Below are positions 19,295 through 30,720 of a stretch of 31,325 nucleotides of DNA, piece by piece. The stretch comes from a virus. Made by a program: the position numbers and the translations under genes. The number at the start of each line of letters is the position of its first letter. Within the stretch, counting starts at the first letter, position 1. The notes under the pieces were generated by a model that saw only the letters and a program-made list of their open reading frames with translations, was not told where the DNA came from and ran no database searches. The stretch spans positions 1 to 31,325 of the IMG/VR virus record IMGVR_UViG_3300020109_000088; one strand, written 5' to 3'.

Positions 19295-19914
19295 TATGCC
19301 TCTTCCAAGCCAATAGAAATATCCCAAAGATCTAAGTTAGGGCCACGCCTAATAACCGTGTGAGAAAAATCTGAAAAGAAAACTTCAAGTAACTGATTGT
19401 ATTGTGGTAAATGTGCATAAGCAGAATCATCTTTGCCAAATAGTGAATATTTGTCGTATGACAAATAACACCAAAAAGATCCTTTGTGCTTTTCATACCA
19501 GTCAAGCAATTCTACTCCTCCTGCACCGCCATCGGTTGTGTAATTGTGTTTATTGCTTTTTCCTTCTGAATCAAAATCTGGATTTAAAGAAAAACCTCTT
19601 GAGGGTAAATTTGTATAACTAAAAGATATCGACAACTTATCTGCAATATGATAAGAACGCATTCTGCCATTTATCATGCGCTCTCTTTTTTCAATTCGTA
19701 TATTTCCAAAATCAATTGACGATCTGTTATCGTCTGACAATATTAAAAACTGATTAATGTTATCTGGATTTACTTCAGAACCTGGATTAGAATTAATTTC
19801 AAGACCGTTAGGAATATACAAACCATTTTCCAGTTTGCCAGAATTTTCAGACCAAAGCATGGCTTGAGGTCTACCATATTTTTTACGACCAGAGATATAT
19901 GTGCTGGTTGCCAT
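19294..19914 (-). CDS. Tail tip protein following the tape measure (distal tail-like)
   Basis: A 206-residue protein encoded directly after the tape measure gene, the usual place of the distal tail protein that joins tube to tip. The sequence is strand-rich with aromatic residues: IDFGNIRIEKRERMINGRMR, LSISFSYTNLPSRGF, DWYEKHKGSFWCYLSYD, LLEVFFSDFSHTVIRRG. It ends in DLWDISIGLEEA, a pattern seen in tail tip proteins that report a 'W-D-I-S-I-x-L-E-E' strand. Start ATG 19914 overlaps the tape measure stop (TAATG), with AAGGAG about ten bases upstream. Role inferred from position and fold impression. No named domain is certain. Confidence 0.65.
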   Translation of the reverse strand: MATSTYISGRKKYGRPQAMLWSENSGKLENGLYIPNGLEINSNPGSEVNPDNINQFLILSDDNRSSIDFGNIRIEKRERMINGRMRSYHIADKLSISFSYTNLPSRGFSLNPDFDSEGKSNKHNYTTDGGAGGVELLDWYEKHKGSFWCYLSYDKYSLFGKDDSAYAHLPQYNQLLEVFFSDFSHTVIRRGPNLDLWDISIGLEEA

Positions 19915-22900
19915 TATAGTCTAACACTCCTTAACTTTTGAGAGTTTACTCTCTGTATATTTGTCATAACTGCCTGAGCAATTTCATCTGGGTTTGCATC
20001 AGACTTAACATTAACACTAATACTATAATTATACACTGAGTCTCCAACTGACTCCCCGCCATTTATTGCCTTCATCGTATCAATGCCGTGAGTATTAACA
20101 GCATACTTGCTCATTACAAATTCTCCTGGAGTAAGCATTGCTGGAACTGTATCAGTACCTAGTGGCATTCCTCCTGCAGCAAAATATTTTGTTATTAATC
20201 CACCAGCACTCTTAAATTTAATGGATCCTGCATGGATAGGGGTTGTAGAAACTGCTGTCTTGCTGAATTTTGCTGCATCTGCAATTTCTTTGGCTTTAAA
20301 TGAAGCATAAGTTGAATAAAATTTTTGTTGTTGTTCTGCTTTTTTCAATTGTGATGCTATAGAGGCTGCTCCAATTGCCCCACTTTCTGCTGCTGCTAAA
20401 ACACTAGGATTTACTTTTGCTGCAGCAAGTGCTGCTGCATTAAGATCTCCTGCTGCTTTTGCTGCTGCATATGACGCTGCTGCTTGTGCAGATGTAAAGC
20501 CAGTAGCACCTGTTGCACCAGTTGCACCCGTAGATCCTGTTGCACCATTACCGCCTGAAGATCCTCCTGTTTCATAGTTAACAGTTATAGTTACTGTTTT
20601 ACTTTTAATTTCATCATACAAACTTTTAATCTTTGCCCAGGTTTGTGCAGCAGTCGAACTATCTGCATTAAATCCATCAAGAGCCTCTTTAATTTGTTTT
20701 CTTAATTTTTCATCTATTAATGTTTGTTGAGCAAGAATTTCTTCCCATTGCTCTCTTGTCTGTCCTGCAACCTCTCTGTTACGATCATTAGCAGCAATAA
20801 TATTCCCAAGAACTGTGAGTTGATAATCTAACGCAAGATTTTTTGTTGTTTCAAGATTGATAGCAGTTTGCAATGGCAAAATTTTATTTTGTTCAATCTC
20901 ATATATTTTTTCTTCATGTGCTCTTATTGCAAGAAGCAAGCCTTCTCTTTTTTCTTCTATAGCATAAATAGCATCCTTGGCTTCTAGAATACTTTTTTCT
21001 AATGCCAATTTTTGAGGATCATTTTCAAGAGCATATATCTGCTGAGATATTTGCCATCTTCTTTCTTCAATCTGATCTTTTGTTAGTCCATTTGCATTGG
21101 TCAATCCCTTAATTGCATTGTCTCTTGCTTGTGTCAACGCATCGCCTTGTCCTGTTGCAAAATCTTGAGCATTTGATGCTCTCATGGCCTGTGCAGCACG
21201 GGCAGCAGCAGAGATATCACCCTGAGTTAAAGCATCCGCTAAATCTAATTGTTGCTCTTGTTGACGAATAATAGATTCATTAACCTTTTGAACTTCTTCT
21301 AATGCTTCGGCTTGTTCATCATATCTGTCGCTAATCTTGCCTGCCTGATAATTCATTACTTCTAAGTCATGAGAAAGAACATTGGATTCCTCTTGAAGCG
21401 TTTTAATTGGACGGTCATATTTCATCTCTATTTCTCGTTCCCAATCGCTAATCTGTTCTTTGAGATCTTCGAGAACGTACTTTAATTTACCAGTTACTTT
21501 TTTACCATCTACTGTTAGATTTAACTCTTTGACGTCCATATTTTCAACACTACGCTCAATCTTTTCAATTTCATCACTAATCATAGATATCTGATGTTCG
21601 TAAATAGCAAGTTCAGCATTCATTGCTGCAAGTGCTTCATCACTTTCAGTCTTACTTCTACTTAATTGCTTAAATGTTTTACCATTAAATTGATTAACTC
21701 CAGTGCTGTCGGCCATACCAGTAACATTAGATTTAAGGGTGTATTCATCCATTGTCTTGTATGCATCAAAAACCTTCATTGCTGCATCATATGCTTTTTG
21801 GAATTTTTCAAGTGGGGTCAAAAGATTTTTCTCAAGATCTTTAGCAGATTCGGAAGTAGAAATAAGATTAAACAAATCTTTCATTAATTTCTGAGTATCC
21901 CCAGTACCACTCTTAATCTGATCCATTATTGCAATCATTGAAATTAAATCTTCGGGATCTTGAATTGCATCATAGATAGAAGCCATGGAAAGGCTTACTT
22001 CTTTACCCGTTGCATCTATTGTTTTAAGTCCTGATAAGAAATTTATTAAATCTGGTGTTTTCTTTAAAGCATCAATTCTTGTTTCGTTGGTTTTGGTTTT
22101 GTCAACTAGGCCTTTTATTTGCTCTCTTAAGATACGTTGCTGAGTTAAAACATTATTAGTCTTTAATTCTTGCGCTGTTATTTTTCCTGTTGCTATGGCA
22201 GTAACATATGTCTGATTCTCCATAGCCTTTTCTATTTCAAGATTAGACAAACCAGCAGCCCTTAATGTTGCGTATGCCTTATTTTGTTGATTGATATTCT
22301 TAATAACCTTCTGTTGTTCTACTTGAAATTCTCCAACTACCGCCTTATCCATACCCTGGCGCATAGCATTACCTTTATCAGTTAATACGAAATCTCCCTT
22401 CTTGTATTTCTGAGTTCTTGTGACCATCTTACCTTTTTCATAGTCAAACTCTTTATACTTCTTCTTACCCTTTTTAGTTGCAGTAAATCCAAATTCTTTC
22501 TGTGCTTCTGGATCTAGATTAGTAATGTAATTAATGAAATCATCACTATATCCCTTCTTCATTAGTTGTTGTTCTATTCCAACAAATTTATTTGCTACTG
22601 ATTTACTTCCTGCAGCAGCGATTGCTTTTTGTAATTCTTTAAAACCACCCGCAGCATTAATTGCAGCATTTCTAACATTCTTGAGACGTTTCATAATATC
22701 TTCAAATGGATCTGCTTTTTTGCCACCCTTATCTTGTCCTTCATATTCGTTTGCGTTATTACTAGCAATATCTTGTTTGACCTTTTGCATAGTATCTATG
22801 CCAGCCATGTCCCTTCTAACTGATTCTCGACCAGCCTCAGTTGCGTAATAATCTCTTAATGTTTCCGCTCCGCCTGCTGCCTTAACTCTTCTTGCAATTT

Positions 22901-25900
22901 CAGCATCTACACTCTTATCATCAATTTGCTTAACAAGAGTTATATATTCTTGAACAACTGTTTTCCTTACCTCTTCTGGTAAATTTTCAAACTCTGCCCA
23001 ACGAGATAGAATTCCATCTAAGTTTACTCCACCTAACTCTTTAACCTCAGTTAAGGCCTTAAGTGTAAACGGCCCCTTATGGTCTTCTACTTCTTGTAAA
23101 GAGTCTGCCAGGTCTGTTAATCTTTGTTGTGCGTCATCTCCTTCAAAAAATGCCTCTATATCAATTTCTTTATTGTCCATTTTCTGCATAAGCATTAATG
23201 TTGCCATTATTTTTTCTGCTTGTTCTGGATCCTTTTGGGCCATCCTTGTAAGTATTTTAACATTTTTCTTACCAATGTCTTTATTTTTAAATCCTCCGAA
23301 GAAGTTAATAACTTCCATAAACTTTCCTGGATCACTAAACTTAGTTGATACAGTAAGAACCTTGTCTAAGCCTTTTTCATCATCTCCAAACATTTGCATT
23401 AGTGAAACTGCTGCCATTGGACTCATTTGACCAGAGGCAACTATTGTGTCTATCTTTACCTCTAATTCTTTACTATCTAGGTCTGCTGAAGTTTTTAAGA
23501 ATGCATCTGCCATCGGATCATTAGCCCATTTTGTTTTAACTTGAGACTTTAATGAATCAAAGAATGCATCCTCTACGGCCCCTCTCTTGGAAGCAACCTT
23601 AAATGCTTCTACCTGATCCTTTAAAATATCGCCATTTACTTTTCTTAAGTCAGCAGTTTGTGTTACTTGATCATCTTTCATTGTTCGAATTTGGGCTTCT
23701 AGTTTTAATTGTTTTTCTTTATTTGTAGTAGATGCTTTTTCTTTTTCTAACTTAGCAATTTCTTTTTCATATTGAATAGTTAAAGAGTCAATTTGTGATT
23801 GATTTAATTCAAGATTTTGCGTACCAATCGCTGCTGAGCCAGAAGCCATTGATTCTCCTGATGTTTGCTTAAACATTTCTCCAAAAGAGTAGTTTAAAAA
23901 TCCTGGAGCCTTCTGGAAAGCACCCATAACCGCAGTGGGAATTCCTATTCCTGGTATAACGACTTTTGAAAGTTGTGAAGCAACATTGTCAAAAGAATTG
24001 TTGTAACCAGCAAGATTTGTGGCTAAGTTTTTAGATACCTGCTTTCCAGTGTCTCTTTGCTGGTTTACTAAATTAACTCTAGTATTAAGTGGGTCTTTTA
24101 ATAAATCTTGTCCTTCTGGTCCAATTAACTCTAACAATTGTCCACTTATTTGTGCACCTAGTGTTGTATTCTTAAGATTTAATCCTATAGCCTCTGCAAC
24201 GCTATGAGCCTGTTCTGCAGAAAGAACTCCGTCAGAAACATATGCTCCAAGTTGAGTAGCCATTTGACTTGCAGATATTTCAGTTCCGAACCTAACCAGA
24301 CTTTCTTTAAATCCTCCAAGAACGTCTTTGCCTACTTCACTTTCTAAGAATGTAGTTCCAAATCTTTGTTTTCCTCTTTCAAAACCAGTTGTAAATCTGT
24401 CAGAGGCTTGCTGATTTCTTCTTCTAGACATTATCTCAGAAGCACCAACCTTGTCTGTTAGTTCTCCAATCTTTTTCATCTTTTCTGTAGTTGCTGATGT
24501 AGCATCTACTAACTTAGACATTGCTTCAGCATGCTTCTTGCCAGCCTTATCCGCTAAATAGAACGATCCTGCTAATGCAGTTGCAGCAACACCTGCTGCT
24601 ATATATGGATTTGCAAGCATAGGAGCCATACCAGCAACTGCTGAAGCACCCATAAGCGCCATACCAGCCCCAGTGTTTCCAGTCATCATCATACCCATAC
24701 CAGCAGTACCCAAGGCCATTGACATACCACCAGAGTATCTGCCAACTTTTTCTTGACGCATTTGTATTTTTTCTCGTCTTGCATCTTTTCTAGCCTGCTT
24801 TGCTGCTTTTGCTTTTTCTGCTTTGTTCCTTGCTTCATTAATTTTTAATGCTTCGTCATGAGCAGCAGCGATTCTGAGTGATTGTTTAGCACGATATGCT
24901 TCATCTTTTGCTCTTCTTTCTGCTCTTTGTGTTTCATTATCGGCCATTCTTGCTTGTTTTAGTTTATTGGCTGCAATTTTTTCATCATTCTTTTTTTGTC
25001 TTTTTAATGCATCTTTAATTTGCTCTTCAGTAAGATTGCGTCCACTTTGTCGTAATCTTTTGGCTCTTTGTTCGTTTAAACGTTGACCTGCTTCTGGTGC
25101 AGATTCATGACCAGGAATTAAAACACCTCTTGAAGTGCGTAGTGGTGCAATCTTAGACAATGCAGTAATCTGATTTGGTTTTGCAACAATCTCAGGCTTT
25201 TTTACTTTTACAGATCTGGTATCTTTAGTTGGTTTTCTTTTTTTATCAATAGGAATAACATTCGCAGGCAAAGGCTGTGTATTTTGTTTTGTTAGTTTTT
25301 TATATGTTTGATCTAAAACATTATAAAGTACTTCACCAGGTTTAACTCCAACTAGTGACGCTCTTGCATTACGTGAAATTTTTACGTTTTCAGATTGTGT
25401 TGAATCAGAACTTAAATCAAATATGGGCCTTGCTGCTCGCTGTTGCTTTTTATATAAACCAGCCTTAAATTGTTGATCAATTAAATAATCGACAGCCTTT
25501 GCCTGTGAAACTGACCCTAGATTTGGAAAACCTTTTGGCCGTCCGCCCTGTTGCTCTAAAAATGCTTCTGCCCTTATTCTAGCCTGTGCTGCCAACTGAA
25601 CCATCTTGGCCTGATCTGCCGATATCGGATGTTGACCAGACTTTAAGAAAGCACTTGCCTGTTGCAATACTTTTGCTGTCTCACGATCATATAACCTATA
25701 CTGATTATTTGCATTCCACGACAACAATTGTCCTAGCGTTGTGTTTTTTGGATTTGCAACGGAGCCTGGATTAACAAAACTGTTAATTAAATTTCTATCA
25801 AATGTAGCAAAACCACTTAACCATTTTTCCTTACCTATACCAGGCGCTCCAGCAGTTTTAGCAATATGAGATAGTTCGGTTCTTAAAAATTTGTTAATTG

Positions 25901-28900
25901 CCGTTTCAGTGTAACCTAACTCTTTCAATTTTGTTCTAAGGTTTGCTGTAATTTCAGAGGCTTTGTTTGCATTTGTAAATTTTGCTTCTTCGGCCAACAA
26001 TGCCTTCTTCAATGGCCCATCCTTTATATATTGTTTCCAATTTCCACTTTGAGATTTAACCGAAAAGTCTTCACGAAGTTTTGAAATACCCTTAGACTGA
26101 GAAGTATAGTTACCGTGAATTGGACTTGGCATTAAGCCCAGCCTATATAGTGTTTGTGACCTTAAGTAATCGAGCGACTTTCCTGTTTTACCTTTTTCAA
26201 AAGCGTCTTTAAGAAAAGCACCTTTGTCTGGATCAATTAATAATTTTTCTTTAAATAATTTTCTTAAAGTTTCACTTTGAGAAATATCAATTTTGCCATC
26301 TTGTAAAATTCCACTTCTTTGCAATTTCTCGATTGCTTTTTGATATTGACTTGGATTTACTGTTTTTAAAGTAGTAAGTGCAGCGCCTGCATCATTGTTT
26401 ATTTGTTTTATTAATGAAGAAATTTGAGTTTGGTTTTCTCGTTTTGCTACTGCTATTTCCCATGGACTTAGGTTTCCCTTACTATATTGAGGAACTTGTT
26501 GACCTGCCCTTATATGTGCAGCATGAACTTTTGTCCAGTCTGTTTTCAAGCCATTTTCTAATCTTGTAATTACATTTGCATATGCTTGCTTTTCTAATGC
26601 ATCAAGATTTTGAAAATTTTTACCACTAGATATTTCTTTTTTATACAAAGGAAGTACTCTTCTAATTTCATCTTTTATTGCTTGATCATATTGTTGTGGA
26701 GACATTTTGGATGCAAGCGCTGATGTTTGTTGTGCAAAAAACTTTTTAGATCCGCCCTTAAACGCTAAGGTATTGGCAAGAGCAGTTTGTTCCATCGATG
26801 GCATAGTTAGTGAGATTTCTCTAAAGCCAGAACCTTTAGGAAATACATATGCATTGCTTGGGTCTGGAGCACTCCTTCCAGAAACATTGCTCATTTGTAA
26901 ATCTCTGTCAGCACGAATTGAAGAAGCAACTAATTGCTTAACCATATCTTTTTGAGTAAATTTACCAGTCATACCTTCTGGACCAAACTTTTTATCATAT
27001 TTTGAAACAAGTGCTAAATACGATCTTTTACCTTCTGGATCAGTAGGATCTAAAATTTTTACAAGTTTAGGCTTTGGTGCACTAATTCCATGAAGTCTAG
27101 TTAAGTCATTTGACCTAATGTCTCCCATAGCGGTTGACGGACTCATGGTTGGTTTTACAACTACTAATTTTCCATCTTTTTGTTTATATACCCCGCCTAC
27201 GCCCTTTACTGGGAAACTATAGCCAGTAAATGGTTTGACTAATTCTCCCATGTCTTGTACTTTCATCTTAGCATATTGACCAACGTTTGCATCTCTAGAT
27301 ATCTTTTCTGCTACCTGTCTTGCTTGAGTTGTCTCACTAAATTTTTTAGGCATTCCGATATCTACTGCGCCTGACTGTTTTACTGGGTGCGAACTACCCC
27401 AAGGCAGCAATCCTTTACTATATCCAGGAACTTTATCTGCAAACATTGCATGTATGAGTCCACGATACTTTTCAGAAGTCTTTGCAGGTATAATTGCTTC
27501 GCCTGGAGAAACCATTGCTGGTACAACATCTCCAGCACCTTTTGGACCTGGAACGCTAACAACTCCCTCTTCATATTTTTTAACTGGTGGAACTTGAGGA
27601 AGTTTGGATACAGCACCTCTTGCTCCACTTAATCCTCCAGTAAACAATGTTGGATTTTGTAAAGCCATAGCCCTCATCTGAGTAGCCATTTGTTGATATG
27701 CTGATGCTAATTGTAAAGCAGCAACTTTTTCAATATTAAAAACTTCTGTCAATCTTGTATGTGTATTATGAAGTGCTTGTCCTGCTGCTTGTTGTTCTAT
27801 TTGTTCTTGAGTCACGTAATTAAAACCAGCACCCAGAATTGTTGTTTGTCCATTAAGTTTAGCAATTCCGCCACGTATTACTGAAAATAATTTAATTAAA
27901 TTGGCCAAACCATTCATTAATAAACCAAATGTCATCAGAACAATTGGTCCCAAACCTGCAACAATACCAATAATTATGGCTATAACTTTTTTTGTATGAT
28001 CTCCAAGTGAATTAAATTTTTCAAATAGTCCACCAAAAAACTTTACAATAGGAGTGATTGCTTCAAGAAATGCTTTTCCTAATGGCATAATATCTTGCTT
28101 AAAGTTTTCTACAGCAGCCTGGAATTTAACACCGACAGACTCTTCTATCTTCTTCATTTCTCGCTCAGATAGAACTGCTAATTCTTCTACAGATGCGCCA
28201 GCAAGATCAAATGCCCTGGCAGCCTGCGTTCCATCTTTTGAAACATTTTGAAATAATGTTGATAAACGAGCAAACTGGAACTTACCAAATAGTTGCTCAA
28301 TTGCCCTTGCACGATTTAAAGGATCTAATGTGTCTAGCGCTCTAGAAAATCCTACAACAGTTCCTTTAAGATCTCCTTGATTTGCCTCAACAATTCCTTT
28401 AATGTTAATGCCCATTTTACCAAGCATCTCGCTTGCTTTTTCTGTTGGGTTAATAAGAGATGCAAGACCAGACTTTAATGCGTTAGCGCCCTCTGATGCA
28501 TTAATGCCACCTTCTTTCATGGCAGTAAGGAAGAATGCTAAATCTTCTACACTACCTCCAAGTTGTTTAACGATTGGTGCTGCTTTAGGAATAGCAATTG
28601 TTAAATCTTCAATGGATAAAACAGTTTGGTTTTCTACTGCGTTTAAAAAATTAATCTTTTCTGCTAACTGTTCACTAGACAAGCCAAATGCATTTTGTAA
28701 AGAAATAGTTGTTTCAAGTGCTTGTTGTTGTTCTACTTGACCAAGAACTGCAAGTTTTGTTGCTGTTTCTACTTGTCTTGTTAGATCTTCCCCTTGGAAA
28801 CCTGCTGCTGCTGCAGTTGCAGCCATGTCCATTGTATCTACTACGGCTACACCAAATTTTGTATATTCTTCTGCAAGTTTTCTAACATTTTGCACTGCCT

Positions 28901-29639
28901 CGTCTATTTGTGCATCATTAGTAAAAGCATCTCCATAAACACGTCTAAATTTAACTGTAGCCTTTTCTAAATCTCTAAAGGCTTTAGCAGCATATCCCCC
29001 AAGCAATGCCAAAGGCATAGTTAAACCAACCATCAACTGACGACCAGCCCATTGAGTGTTTTTACCAAAATTTAATAATTGTGTAGATCCTTGCCTTAGT
29101 AATTGATTTAAAAATTGTTGTCTTTGTGCTGCATATTGTATTCTAGTACCAAGTTCTGTAAATCTGCCATTAGCCATCATCAATGTTCTTGGCATAATAC
29201 GCATTGCTTCCATAAATCCGCCCTGCGCTTTAGCCATTTGGATATACTGTGCTTGTAATGCCTTTACTCTATCTCTACGAGCACGATTAATAATTTCTCG
29301 TTCTCGTGCAAATGCTCTACCTAAAACCTTTGTGTTGGCTGTAGCAGCAGCCATACTGTATCTGTAGTATTCTCTAAGTGATAATTTATTTTTTTCTAGT
29401 GCGCTTGTAAACGCCATAGTGCTTGATGCAACTTTTGCTTGGCTTACAGCAAATTTTCCTGTTGCACCTATAGACTGGAATAATTGAGCATTTAAACCTT
29501 TTTGTGCATTTGCAGCAGCCAGGTTGCCCTCAGCAAGAGTCTGATGAAATTTACTGAGGCCCGCCTGTAATCTGCGTAATTGTGCTAAAGCGTCGGCAGT
29601 ATTAAAGTTGACATTAATATTAGAATTTACATCTGCCAA
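19914..29639 (-). CDS. Tail tape measure protein (3241 residues)
   Basis: Sets tail length and is ejected into the cell during infection. Residues 1-190 are coiled helices. Residues about 195-510 are the TP901-type core (QLMVGLTMPLALLGGYAAKA; AATAAAAGFQGEDL). A hydrophobic span lies at 551-590. The motif VVPAMVSPGEAIIP is at 705-718 and TVPAMLTPGEFVMS at 3164-3177. A kinase-like segment sits at 800-990, a basic charged coiled coil at 1500-1633 (KKNDEKIAANKLKQARM), and a Gly/Met/Ala-rich membrane-active segment at 1636-1697. Long coiled coils follow at 1940-3000, then a collagen-like repeat at 3032-3048. The start is TTG 29639 with GAGGTG eight bases upstream. By the rule of about 0.15 nm per residue the tail would be near 480 nm, less if the globular inserts do not contribute. 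Confidence 0.95.
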   Translation of the reverse strand: MADVNSNINVNFNTADALAQLRRLQAGLSKFHQTLAEGNLAAANAQKGLNAQLFQSIGATGKFAVSQAKVASSTMAFTSALEKNKLSLREYYRYSMAAATANTKVLGRAFAREREIINRARRDRVKALQAQYIQMAKAQGGFMEAMRIMPRTLMMANGRFTELGTRIQYAAQRQQFLNQLLRQGSTQLLNFGKNTQWAGRQLMVGLTMPLALLGGYAAKAFRDLEKATVKFRRVYGDAFTNDAQIDEAVQNVRKLAEEYTKFGVAVVDTMDMAATAAAAGFQGEDLTRQVETATKLAVLGQVEQQQALETTISLQNAFGLSSEQLAEKINFLNAVENQTVLSIEDLTIAIPKAAPIVKQLGGSVEDLAFFLTAMKEGGINASEGANALKSGLASLINPTEKASEMLGKMGINIKGIVEANQGDLKGTVVGFSRALDTLDPLNRARAIEQLFGKFQFARLSTLFQNVSKDGTQAARAFDLAGASVEELAVLSEREMKKIEESVGVKFQAAVENFKQDIMPLGKAFLEAITPIVKFFGGLFEKFNSLGDHTKKVIAIIIGIVAGLGPIVLMTFGLLMNGLANLIKLFSVIRGGIAKLNGQTTILGAGFNYVTQEQIEQQAAGQALHNTHTRLTEVFNIEKVAALQLASAYQQMATQMRAMALQNPTLFTGGLSGARGAVSKLPQVPPVKKYEEGVVSVPGPKGAGDVVPAMVSPGEAIIPAKTSEKYRGLIHAMFADKVPGYSKGLLPWGSSHPVKQSGAVDIGMPKKFSETTQARQVAEKISRDANVGQYAKMKVQDMGELVKPFTGYSFPVKGVGGVYKQKDGKLVVVKPTMSPSTAMGDIRSNDLTRLHGISAPKPKLVKILDPTDPEGKRSYLALVSKYDKKFGPEGMTGKFTQKDMVKQLVASSIRADRDLQMSNVSGRSAPDPSNAYVFPKGSGFREISLTMPSMEQTALANTLAFKGGSKKFFAQQTSALASKMSPQQYDQAIKDEIRRVLPLYKKEISSGKNFQNLDALEKQAYANVITRLENGLKTDWTKVHAAHIRAGQQVPQYSKGNLSPWEIAVAKRENQTQISSLIKQINNDAGAALTTLKTVNPSQYQKAIEKLQRSGILQDGKIDISQSETLRKLFKEKLLIDPDKGAFLKDAFEKGKTGKSLDYLRSQTLYRLGLMPSPIHGNYTSQSKGISKLREDFSVKSQSGNWKQYIKDGPLKKALLAEEAKFTNANKASEITANLRTKLKELGYTETAINKFLRTELSHIAKTAGAPGIGKEKWLSGFATFDRNLINSFVNPGSVANPKNTTLGQLLSWNANNQYRLYDRETAKVLQQASAFLKSGQHPISADQAKMVQLAAQARIRAEAFLEQQGGRPKGFPNLGSVSQAKAVDYLIDQQFKAGLYKKQQRAARPIFDLSSDSTQSENVKISRNARASLVGVKPGEVLYNVLDQTYKKLTKQNTQPLPANVIPIDKKRKPTKDTRSVKVKKPEIVAKPNQITALSKIAPLRTSRGVLIPGHESAPEAGQRLNEQRAKRLRQSGRNLTEEQIKDALKRQKKNDEKIAANKLKQARMADNETQRAERRAKDEAYRAKQSLRIAAAHDEALKINEARNKAEKAKAAKQARKDARREKIQMRQEKVGRYSGGMSMALGTAGMGMMMTGNTGAGMALMGASAVAGMAPMLANPYIAAGVAATALAGSFYLADKAGKKHAEAMSKLVDATSATTEKMKKIGELTDKVGASEIMSRRRNQQASDRFTTGFERGKQRFGTTFLESEVGKDVLGGFKESLVRFGTEISASQMATQLGAYVSDGVLSAEQAHSVAEAIGLNLKNTTLGAQISGQLLELIGPEGQDLLKDPLNTRVNLVNQQRDTGKQVSKNLATNLAGYNNSFDNVASQLSKVVIPGIGIPTAVMGAFQKAPGFLNYSFGEMFKQTSGESMASGSAAIGTQNLELNQSQIDSLTIQYEKEIAKLEKEKASTTNKEKQLKLEAQIRTMKDDQVTQTADLRKVNGDILKDQVEAFKVASKRGAVEDAFFDSLKSQVKTKWANDPMADAFLKTSADLDSKELEVKIDTIVASGQMSPMAAVSLMQMFGDDEKGLDKVLTVSTKFSDPGKFMEVINFFGGFKNKDIGKKNVKILTRMAQKDPEQAEKIMATLMLMQKMDNKEIDIEAFFEGDDAQQRLTDLADSLQEVEDHKGPFTLKALTEVKELGGVNLDGILSRWAEFENLPEEVRKTVVQEYITLVKQIDDKSVDAEIARRVKAAGGAETLRDYYATEAGRESVRRDMAGIDTMQKVKQDIASNNANEYEGQDKGGKKADPFEDIMKRLKNVRNAAINAAGGFKELQKAIAAAGSKSVANKFVGIEQQLMKKGYSDDFINYITNLDPEAQKEFGFTATKKGKKKYKEFDYEKGKMVTRTQKYKKGDFVLTDKGNAMRQGMDKAVVGEFQVEQQKVIKNINQQNKAYATLRAAGLSNLEIEKAMENQTYVTAIATGKITAQELKTNNVLTQQRILREQIKGLVDKTKTNETRIDALKKTPDLINFLSGLKTIDATGKEVSLSMASIYDAIQDPEDLISMIAIMDQIKSGTGDTQKLMKDLFNLISTSESAKDLEKNLLTPLEKFQKAYDAAMKVFDAYKTMDEYTLKSNVTGMADSTGVNQFNGKTFKQLSRSKTESDEALAAMNAELAIYEHQISMISDEIEKIERSVENMDVKELNLTVDGKKVTGKLKYVLEDLKEQISDWEREIEMKYDRPIKTLQEESNVLSHDLEVMNYQAGKISDRYDEQAEALEEVQKVNESIIRQQEQQLDLADALTQGDISAAARAAQAMRASNAQDFATGQGDALTQARDNAIKGLTNANGLTKDQIEERRWQISQQIYALENDPQKLALEKSILEAKDAIYAIEEKREGLLLAIRAHEEKIYEIEQNKILPLQTAINLETTKNLALDYQLTVLGNIIAANDRNREVAGQTREQWEEILAQQTLIDEKLRKQIKEALDGFNADSSTAAQTWAKIKSLYDEIKSKTVTITVNYETGGSSGGNGATGSTGATGATGATGFTSAQAAASYAAAKAAGDLNAAALAAAKVNPSVLAAAESGAIGAASIASQLKKAEQQQKFYSTYASFKAKEIADAAKFSKTAVSTTPIHAGSIKFKSAGGLITKYFAAGGMPLGTDTVPAMLTPGEFVMSKYAVNTHGIDTMKAINGGESVGDSVYNYSISVNVKSDANPDEIAQAVMTNIQRVNSQKLRSVRL
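20103..20168 (-). other. Tape measure PAM(L)TPGE motif, C-terminal copy
   Basis: Residues 3158-3179 carry the motif GTDTVPAMLTPGEFVM, a widespread tape measure signature near the C-terminus. A degenerate copy lies at residues 705-718, about 2460 residues earlier. Confidence 0.7.
20496..20546 (-). repeat. Collagen-like GAT repeat in tape measure C-terminus
   Basis: Residues 3032-3048 read GATGSTGATGATGATGF: five Gly-x-Thr triplets, encoded by a short nine-base imperfect repeat. An Ala-rich helix follows (about 3051-3100). Such repeats often form triple helices or flexible linkers and vary in number between relatives. Confidence 0.75.
26479..26495 (-). repeat. Linker repeat, downstream copy (VPQYSKG)
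   Basis: Seventeen bases encoding part of VPQYSKGNLSPW (residues 1049-1060). It matches 15 of 17 bases of a copy at 27415-27431 in the same gene and frame. The two copies flank the kinase-like segment. Confidence 0.5.
26670..27242 (-). other. Kinase-like segment embedded in the tape measure
   Basis: Residues 800-990. VGGVYKQKDGKLVVVKP (814-830) has the strand-turn-strand pattern with a Val-Lys-Pro lysine, as in PI4K type II and HipA-like kinases. HGISAPKPKLVKI (850-862) and YLALVSKYD (874-882) match the following strands. VASSIRADRDLQMSNV (904-919) has the DRxxxxN-like catalytic loop pattern, with D911, R912, D913 and N918. A clear metal-binding DFG-type Asp is not evident afterwards; D926 is the only nearby candidate. 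By eye this is a kinase-fold candidate, active or degenerate. It could also be an unrelated alpha/beta insertion. Confidence 0.35.
27411..27527 (-). other. Tape measure SPGE motif, internal copy
   Basis: Residues 705-743, containing VVPAMVSPGEAIIPAKTSEK and then ADKVPGYSKG. It repeats the C-terminal VPAMLTPGEFVMS motif and leads directly into the linker repeat and the kinase-like segment. Confidence 0.65.
27415..27431 (-). repeat. Linker repeat, upstream copy (VPGYSKG)
   Basis: Seventeen bases encoding part of VPGYSKGLLPW (residues 737-747), matching the copy at 26479-26495 at 15 of 17 positions. Both keep a V-P-x-Y-S-K-G-x-L core followed shortly by P-W. Confidence 0.5.
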
Positions 29640-29663: not shown

Positions 29664-29990
29664 TTATTTTGTCAAACCAGCAACAACTGATGCTTCGGCA
29701 TTCTGGAATCCAGATGCTGCATCAATTATTTGATAAACTGTAGGAAGATCTAATAGTTCTTCCAGTTGATCTCTTTCGTCTGCCAATTCTGGCTTATATT
29801 GTTTCATTGCAATCTGGACACAATCCATCAAAATATCCATGGACTTATCGTTGTCGTCTGAAACCGCAGCCAATTCTGCGAACTTTACCATAAAAGGTCT
29901 TAGAAGAGACAACTTAAGCGCTCTAACTGGGACCTCTGTGTTGTCGACTAACGTAATTGTTTTCTTATTATCTTTAGGCTTTTCGGCCAT
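29664..29990 (-). CDS. Tail assembly chaperone, second copy
   Basis: A 108-residue helical protein paralogous to the N-terminal half of the preceding gene. Shared segments are LVDNTEVPVRALKLSLLRPF against LIDGTELYITPLKIKFLKLF, and IAMKQYKPEL...LDLPTVYQIIDAASG against IAMRQYYPQI...IDMPTVYQILDYAAG. It sits immediately before the tape measure gene, as expected of chaperones that coat the tape measure during tail assembly. Start ATG 29990 has AAGGAGGA upstream. It ends at VVAGLTK without the C-terminal extension of its paralog, so it is the short (G-like) form. No slippery heptamer is evident near the end, and two in-frame stops separate it from the tape measure gene in the same frame. Confidence 0.75.
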   Translation of the reverse strand: MAEKPKDNKKTITLVDNTEVPVRALKLSLLRPFMVKFAELAAVSDDNDKSMDILMDCVQIAMKQYKPELADERDQLEELLDLPTVYQIIDAASGFQNAEASVVAGLTK

Positions 29991-30033: not shown

Positions 30034-30720
30034 TTATTTTTCAGTTAGATCCTCATAATCTAAGCCCAAACCAATACCAAACCCTGCTTGCTGTGCATTT
30101 ACTCCCTGTAGGGCTAATATGTCATTTGAATTAGTTGCCTTACCCTTGCTAAATACCCTGGCTTTCATTTCGTCCCAGGCGTTGCCCTTCTTGGTTTGTT
30201 TATCTAAATCTACACCTTGCATAGCAGCAAGAAATTTTTTATGAGAATAATCTAGGTCTCTTTTTATCTTAAGGGTAGCAACTATTTCGGGCATTGACAT
30301 AGATGACTCTAATTCTTCGTAATCTTTCCAAATACCGAGCAAAAACACCTCTGACTCTAGTTCTGCCAAATCTAATTCATCCCAGGTTGATCCGCTTTCG
30401 GTTGCCTGTTTTTTTACTGTATCCTCGGACTTTTCATTAATTTTAATTCCTGCAGCATAATCTAATATTTGATAAACGGTTGGCATGTCTATATTATCCT
30501 CTAATTCTTTTTGTGTTTTGATTTGCGGATAATACTGTCTCATTGCGATTACTGCACATTTTGCTAAAGCGTCTATAGCCTGATCATCATTTTTGGCAGA
30601 TTTAACATTTTCAAATTCTACTAAAAATAATTTTAAAAATTTTATCTTTAACGGAGTTATATATAATTCTGTTCCGTCTATTAATTCTACAACACTGCTT
30701 TTATATATTTCTGTAGGCAT
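30034..30720 (-). CDS. Tail assembly chaperone, first and longer copy
   Basis: A 228-residue protein. The N-terminal half (about 1-93) is the chaperone domain shared with the following gene. The C-terminal half (about 115-228) has LLGIWKDYEELESSMSMP, LDYSHKKFLAAMQGVDL and NDILALQGVNAQQAGFG, a pattern I recall from tail assembly chaperones of large actinobacteriophages. In many phages the long form arises by a programmed -1 frameshift. Here both halves are in one frame, so none is needed. It probably binds the tape measure and tube protein. ATG 30720 lacks a Shine-Dalgarno sequence, but TATAAT lies six bases upstream, so translation may start on a leaderless transcript. A terminator-like hairpin precedes it. 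Confidence 0.8.
   Translation of the reverse strand: MPTEIYKSSVVELIDGTELYITPLKIKFLKLFLVEFENVKSAKNDDQAIDALAKCAVIAMRQYYPQIKTQKELEDNIDMPTVYQILDYAAGIKINEKSEDTVKKQATESGSTWDELDLAELESEVFLLGIWKDYEELESSMSMPEIVATLKIKRDLDYSHKKFLAAMQGVDLDKQTKKGNAWDEMKARVFSKGKATNSNDILALQGVNAQQAGFGIGLGLDYEDLTEK

Follow-up and report, generated by a model that had tools for sequence, protein, structure and literature searches.

A predicted kinase-fold cassette in the variable zone of a phage tape measure protein: a possible enzyme delivered to the host cell on infection

Can a phage tape measure protein carry a kinase that is delivered into the host at infection? The question is raised by a virus record of 31,325 bases (35.6% GC, with no tRNA genes found in it by ARAGORN), the whole of which was analysed and is referred to here as the window. 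The largest ORF listed in it encodes a tape measure protein (Table 1), inside which a first-pass annotation, made from the letters alone, had pointed out a segment resembling a kinase. The protein matches nine PHROG tape measure families, chiefly over its N-terminal 660 residues, and the best stretch for the tape measure family phrog_167 (residues 14-1101) crosses the putative kinase domain. Among the best-listed isolate matches, both the N-terminus of the tape measure and a DnaE-type polymerase lead to Streptomyces phages, three of which are Stanwilliamsviridae by record. Upstream of the tape measure gene, the ORFs at 29664-29990 and 30034-30720 on the minus strand look like paralogues of one another and occupy the position of tail assembly chaperones, the second being the longer of the two.

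Table 1. Features of the tape measure gene in the window; residues are those of the tape measure protein, and counts out of 112 are of distinct relatives of the kinase-fold domain.
Feature	Residues	Positions	Strand	Basis
Tape measure protein		19914..29639	(-)	3241 aa, TTG start; PhageMin_Tail and PHROG tape measure matches
Conserved N-terminal domain of the tape measure	256-452	28284..28874	(-)	PhageMin_Tail, Pfam PF10145, E 8.9e-29
Hydrophobic segment upstream of the kinase	548-588	27876..27998	(-)	Kyte-Doolittle mean up to 2.59 over 19 residues
Variable zone, with kinase cassette and module 2	about 690-1615	24795..27572	(-)	zone 459-966 aa in 56 tape measures
GDVVPAMVSPGE motif, upstream border of the zone	703-714	27498..27533	(-)	sequence
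Kinase-fold domain (predicted)	about 756-1050	26490..27374	(-)	AlphaFold2 pLDDT 87, pTM 0.84; VIA-align matches
Glycine-rich loop GVGGVYKQKDGK	813-824	27168..27203	(-)	G816 111/112 (1 gap); G815 109/112 (A 1, S 1, gap 1)
K829, candidate beta-3 ATP-binding lysine	829	27153..27155	(-)	112/112
D840, alpha-C acidic position, Glu in most relatives	840	27120..27122	(-)	E 106, D 4, Q 2 of 112
Catalytic loop RADRDLQMSN	909-918	26886..26915	(-)	R909, D911, D913, L914, N918 each 112/112
D926, candidate second metal Asp (DxG equivalent)	926	26862..26864	(-)	112/112
Module 2, usually after the kinase	1056-1510	25110..26474	(-)	conserved H1258, D1281, N1286, H1337-P1338
Conserved block after the zone, weakly hydrophobic in part	1616-1868	24036..24794	(-)	profile 66/81; hydropathy 1.49 at 1658-1676

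Translation placed the segment singled out by the first-pass annotation (26670-27242, minus strand) at residues 800-990 of the tape measure, as had been stated, with the motifs GGVYK (815-819), VVVKP (826-830) and ADRDLQMSNV (910-919) where they had been reported; the domain itself is larger than this segment. Residues 756-1055 were modelled with AlphaFold2 from an alignment of 39 sequences, and the confident model that resulted has N-lobe strands, a helix following the K829 strand (alpha-C), two further strands and a helical C-lobe. It thereby has the two lobes of a kinase fold, as a prediction and with no solved structure behind it. When the model was compared with the PDB using VIA-align, the best row was the Helicobacter pylori kinase CtkA (3akk; Z 10.3, rmsd 4.5, 208 residues aligned), with the N-terminal fragment of LepB (Z 9.0), a Golgi casein kinase (8.9) that we take to be Fam20, Vps34 and PI4KII-alpha (8.8 each), HipA (8.6) and HipT (8.1) below it. 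A Z of 8 or more was reached by 34 of 999 PDB chains, and in the best 50 rows, wherever a title identifies the protein, it is an atypical kinase, a class that we have ourselves assigned to these rows, including LepB and the 'MDT' entries, presumed to be HipA. A best Z of 7-8 is common in such comparisons without any clear match or kinship. For comparison, module 2 of the same protein was taken through the same procedure and gave no row at Z 5, the best being 4.9 with a mixture of folds; this contrast is only partial, because the model of module 2 is the poorer one (pLDDT 80, pTM 0.60).

Foldseek gave a weaker picture. Against the PDB, the sole match with an E-value up to 0.001 was PINK1 (8.2e-4), and the best 50 rows, with TM-scores of 0.17-0.39, were of Ser/Thr kinases, HipA and CtkA among them. 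In a viral structure library seven matches had an E-value up to 0.001, one of them named as a PI3/4-kinase domain protein and the other six being an HK97 portal protein, two ADP-ribosyltransferases, an uncharacterised protein of an archaeal tailed virus and two unnamed entries; none of the five named matches at this threshold is a tape measure. These matches imply that kinase-like folds in large phage proteins are not unique to the tape measure of the window. The likeness to HipA and PI3K/PI4K kinds of kinase, which had been proposed from the order and spacing of the motifs, is thus recovered by structure prediction and fold search. With the conservation described below, the presence of a kinase-fold domain within the tape measure is well supported, and, while it remains a predicted fold, we have very little doubt of it.

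Sequence searches, by comparison, did not assign the domain to a known family. Neither Pfam, PHROGs nor NCBIfam placed it when 39 of its members were searched, nor did Pfam and PHROGs with the whole protein; the matches to the 39 members were weak and scattered (1-7 members each), and one of these, to adenylate kinase (1 member, E 0.057), was dismissed since that enzyme has a different fold. The 191-residue segment alone had no PHROG match, and PDB sequence searches with a single sequence and with a profile returned chance-level matches only. The HipA_C family PF07804 is absent from the 11 Pfam families that the 39 members match at E up to 10 (filters on), as is PF00454 of the PI4K type II and PI3K enzymes, and neither occurs in the window record. 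In control searches the PF07804 profile found matches in 4 of 14 genomes; the control for PF00454 was poor, with matches in 1 of 14 genomes and none over the cut-off. Assignment to the HipA or the PI4K family was therefore rejected, as neither profile matches.

A profile of HipA built from nine proteins (that of E. coli and eight from plasmids, the plasmid HipA locus L252 being left out) gave a single match of 28-29 columns to the domain, pairing window residues 836-864 with HipA 199-227, which form the alpha-C to beta-4 stretch in both and stand in the expected register. Its score of 23.8 corresponds to a P of 0.01-0.03, depending on the part compared, and was reached in none of 150 column shuffles (mean 15.4, maximum 23.4), a small margin; global alignment of the domain family to the HipA profile failed. 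Such a sequence link may be called suggestive, and is insufficient for membership. As CtkA, LepB, the Golgi casein kinase, Vps34, PI4KII-alpha and HipA all lie within 1.7 Z units of one another, the structural comparison allows no choice between a protein and a lipid kinase, and a kinase family is not ruled out by its absence from the structural list.

Whether the domain could be catalytic depends on its active-site residues (Table 1), among which D913 is the candidate base and N918 a candidate metal ligand. K829, D911, D913, N918 and D926 are invariant in 112 of 112 distinct relatives, whose identity to the window falls as low as 35%. From this count we left out loci retrieved by a pattern that includes D911 and D913, to which circularity would apply; a further count over 46 representatives includes such loci and is given no weight as evidence. 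In a separate alignment of 39 relatives, retrieved with search patterns that do not cover any of the five positions, 55 of 300 columns are invariant and all five are among them, K829 being one of two invariant lysines among 34. The chance that all four positions named beforehand by the first-pass annotation (K829, D911, D913 and N918) would be invariant in these 39 is about 0.001, and the conservation that it had put forward as support is met in both sets. Its statement that the second metal-binding Asp is missing has to be corrected, this residue being D926. The Asp lies in a PDPSN context in the window copy and usually in ADVG or ADPG in the relatives, with Gly in 106 and Ser in 6 of the 112 sequences two positions after it.

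The branch to which the window belongs is unusual at three positions, namely D840 at the alpha-C Glu site, V878 at the hinge Glu site and S928 at the Gly site of the DxG motif, while keeping the Lys, Asp, Asn and Asp; the earlier suspicion that the domain may be degenerate finds no support for the family. N918 and D926 are separated by 8 residues, whereas in E. coli HipA the corresponding pair, N314 and D332, is 18 apart, and the intervening turn in the domain must therefore be short; in the AlphaFold2 model it has single strand-or-bridge residues at 920 and 923. Because HipA likewise lacks a Gly after its metal Asp (FYDIIS), we do not read the substitutions of the window's branch as a loss of function. 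Pairwise dN/dS values for 28 pairs of the domain range from 0.07 to 0.42. By sequence, then, the beta-3 Lys, the catalytic Asp, the Asn and the second metal Asp of a kinase are all in place, though their geometry in a common site has not been shown. We consider it likely, with good though incomplete confidence, that the domain is catalytic, phosphate transfer itself being inferred and untested.

Set beside HipA and HipT, the domain shares, apart from the structural likeness and the stretch aligned by profile, a D-x4-N catalytic loop and an Asp-x-x metal motif; it differs in having no PF07804 match, in lying inside a tape measure and in the shorter distance from the Asn to its metal Asp (8 residues, not 18). 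With PI4K type II enzymes, whose motif is a glycine-rich loop followed by a V-KP strand, it has that succession in common along with the Z values of PI4KII-alpha, Vps34 and the LepB fragment, and differs in the absence of a PF00454 match, for which the control is weak. CtkA, although the best structural row, is 10% identical over the aligned part and is presumably not part of a tape measure.

Searches of viral contigs with the domain and with the N-terminus of the tape measure yielded at least 315 partly overlapping loci; four of the five viral lists consist of the best 80 matches, and locus counts are not phage counts. Among the viral-contig loci listed, the domain profile matches 269 ORFs, the window included. 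The tape measure N-terminus is held by 258 of them, so that the segment does recur in other tape measures, where the first-pass annotation had proposed to seek it by profile, and the remaining 11 run off the start of their locus with the upstream part cut off. No copy outside a tape measure was seen among these 269 ORFs. Two scans of species genomes, which relied on one or two short peptide patterns apiece and were hence of limited sensitivity, found no relative, and tblastn against 50,697 isolate phage records found no convincing one: three records in one search and one record in another had weak partial matches, among them a single Microbacterium match. Two Streptomyces phage regions, corresponding to an annotated primase/polymerase gene and to a hypothetical gene of the same size, were set aside as chance matches.

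How the domain sits in its carrier was examined in the 80 viral-contig tape measures that best match the window N-terminus (73-89% identical) and in those of three Streptomyces phages. It lies in a variable zone, 926 aa long in the window, between two conserved blocks. The block that follows the zone is recognised by profile in 66 of 81 viral-contig tape measures (the best 80 listed and the window); in the tape measures of the three Streptomyces phages the profile did not detect it. The kinase is present in 33 of the 83 tape measures, and in 27 of the 65 with both zone borders, figures that pertain to the best matches listed and are not natural frequencies. One relative lacking it is L160, whose N-terminal block is 89% identical to that of the window: its tape measure is about 308 residues shorter than that of L167 exactly at the kinase site, the two being 71-96% identical before the gap, 62-71% over the next 700 columns and less beyond. 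The kinase domain is, accordingly, a cassette, housed in a variable zone that has a conserved block on either side.

A tree of 56 N-terminal blocks requires at least four changes of presence, forced by well-supported branches. L160 and L197, without the kinase, fall inside the kinase clade, and L239 carries it far from that clade, on a long branch of unsure place. On this tree the domain is passed on over long stretches, with occasional losses and perhaps occasional gains; it is probably dispensable, since two relatives inside the kinase clade do without it. The tape measure ORFs of L168 and L193 end at about 2035 and 2201 residues, below most complete relatives, and are perhaps split or frameshifted. 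A GDxVPAMLxPGE-like motif that lies just ahead of the variable zone recurs towards the C-terminus of the window protein, near residue 3161 (about 20120-20160, minus strand), and such motifs may mark module borders.

Taken as a whole, we favor the reading that the domain is an active phosphotransferase which rides on the tape measure and works on a protein or lipid in the host cytoplasm at DNA entry, and give it a probability of roughly 0.57. In this active kinase K829 would contact the phosphates of ATP, partnered by the Asp or Glu at 840; D913 would act as the base, and N918 and D926 would hold the metal. The cassette would travel with the tape measure through the tail, become active on reaching the ATP-containing cytoplasm of the host at DNA entry and there modify a host protein or lipid, either being equally possible; timing and place of action are inferred. 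A paper on the effector Sle1 (PMC13277306) states that tape measures undergo ejection and membrane insertion. It would follow, as an inference, that the kinase could face a cytoplasm with ATP. Since actinobacterial membranes contain phosphatidylinositol, a lipid target is possible. The idea that a membrane segment on either side leaves the kinase in a loop has little behind it downstream, where hydropathy predicts only a marginal segment at 1658-1676 in the window and none in L167 at the same threshold. Given the dimensions of tails, a folded kinase may be too large for the lumen, in which case it would need to be unfolded or located at the tip. The more specific proposal, in which the variable zone is a cargo bay and the kinase an injected effector that phosphorylates a host protein or membrane lipid at the very start of infection, before phage genes are expressed, is tentative, and we would not put it at even odds. 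Of the explanations considered, action at entry is the best single one; it is plausible and, like delivery itself, rests on inference.

The same fold and conservation would equally be found if an active kinase did its work inside the producing cell, while tails are being assembled or late in infection, and were packaged only passively. Tape measures are made in the ATP-containing cytoplasm of that cell before assembly, which would suit such a role; but a separate gene would do as well, with no copy seen outside a tape measure among the loci listed, and the relatives without the kinase presumably still assemble their tails. We regard this as unlikely, while keeping it in view. A non-catalytic pseudokinase with a structural or binding role, its fold retained to serve as spacer, plug or tip module, could account for the loss of the domain in some relatives, for the very short spacing between N918 and D926 and for the Asp, Val and Ser that the window copy has at the usual Glu, Glu and Gly positions. 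What makes it rather improbable is the constancy of the five catalytic-type residues across all 112 relatives while overall identity drops to 35%, and the last of the three substitutions loses force with HipA itself lacking that Gly. That an unrelated fold merely happens to contain kinase-like short motifs could be argued from the low Foldseek scores and from the failure of every sequence profile search to tie the domain to a kinase family of the predicted fold; against the confident model, the kinases in the named top structural rows and the invariant residues such a coincidence is scarcely credible, and we reject it.

An active kinase delivered at entry would not be the first enzyme associated with a tape measure. 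According to the accessible text on mycobacteriophage TM4 (PMC1796659), its tape measure has a peptidoglycan-hydrolase motif that is dispensable for viability and helps infection; both proteins thus bear an accessory enzyme motif, that of TM4 being a cell-wall hydrolase and not a kinase fold. Contractile injection systems of actinobacteria have effectors related to tape measures, Tme (PMC11126660) and Sle1 (PMC13277306), and, so far as the available portions of these papers go, the likeness lies in a tape-measure-like carrier with a functional domain, exchangeable in Sle1-like effectors, and the difference in their belonging to injection systems rather than phages, with Tme carrying an endonuclease. 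The Sle1 text never uses the word 'kinase', and the Tme text uses it a single time, for a cloning enzyme. Within the literature searched (mostly without subscription papers, and partly at the level of titles), no kinase domain in a tape measure was recognised, and none is reported in the available parts of PMC7824862, PMC8876498, PMC6102473, PMC6293099 and PMC6591296.

The enzyme motif that has been confirmed in print for a phage tape measure, that of TM4, cuts the cell wall, as far as the accessible text indicates. A kinase-fold domain with constant catalytic-type residues suggests that tape measures may also be able to carry enzymes which alter molecules of the host at entry. The cassette parallels the tape-measure-related effectors of injection systems and offers a precise, testable protein segment, which may prove to be an enzyme that the phage delivers to the host cell on infection; both its activity and its target are untested.

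The kinase is usually accompanied by module 2 (about 455 aa), which follows it in 31 of 33 cases, the exceptions being L235, cut off just past the kinase, and L239, which has no module 2. L160 and L197 have module 2 but no kinase, and so has L238, for part of the module. In 28 sequences 18-38% identical to the window its H, N and HP residues are kept and its D nearly always, and it may be a second enzyme. Its null result against the PDB does not show a new fold, the tool advising smaller pieces, and in the viral structure library its one match with an E-value up to 0.001 is another tape measure. A stretch of module 2 recurs further on in several tape measures. In L183, L195, L216, L236 and other tape measures without the kinase, residues about 700-1000 are occupied by a different zone sequence with a recurring FAH/FSH motif, which may be an alternative cargo, possibly with a distant relation to module 2.
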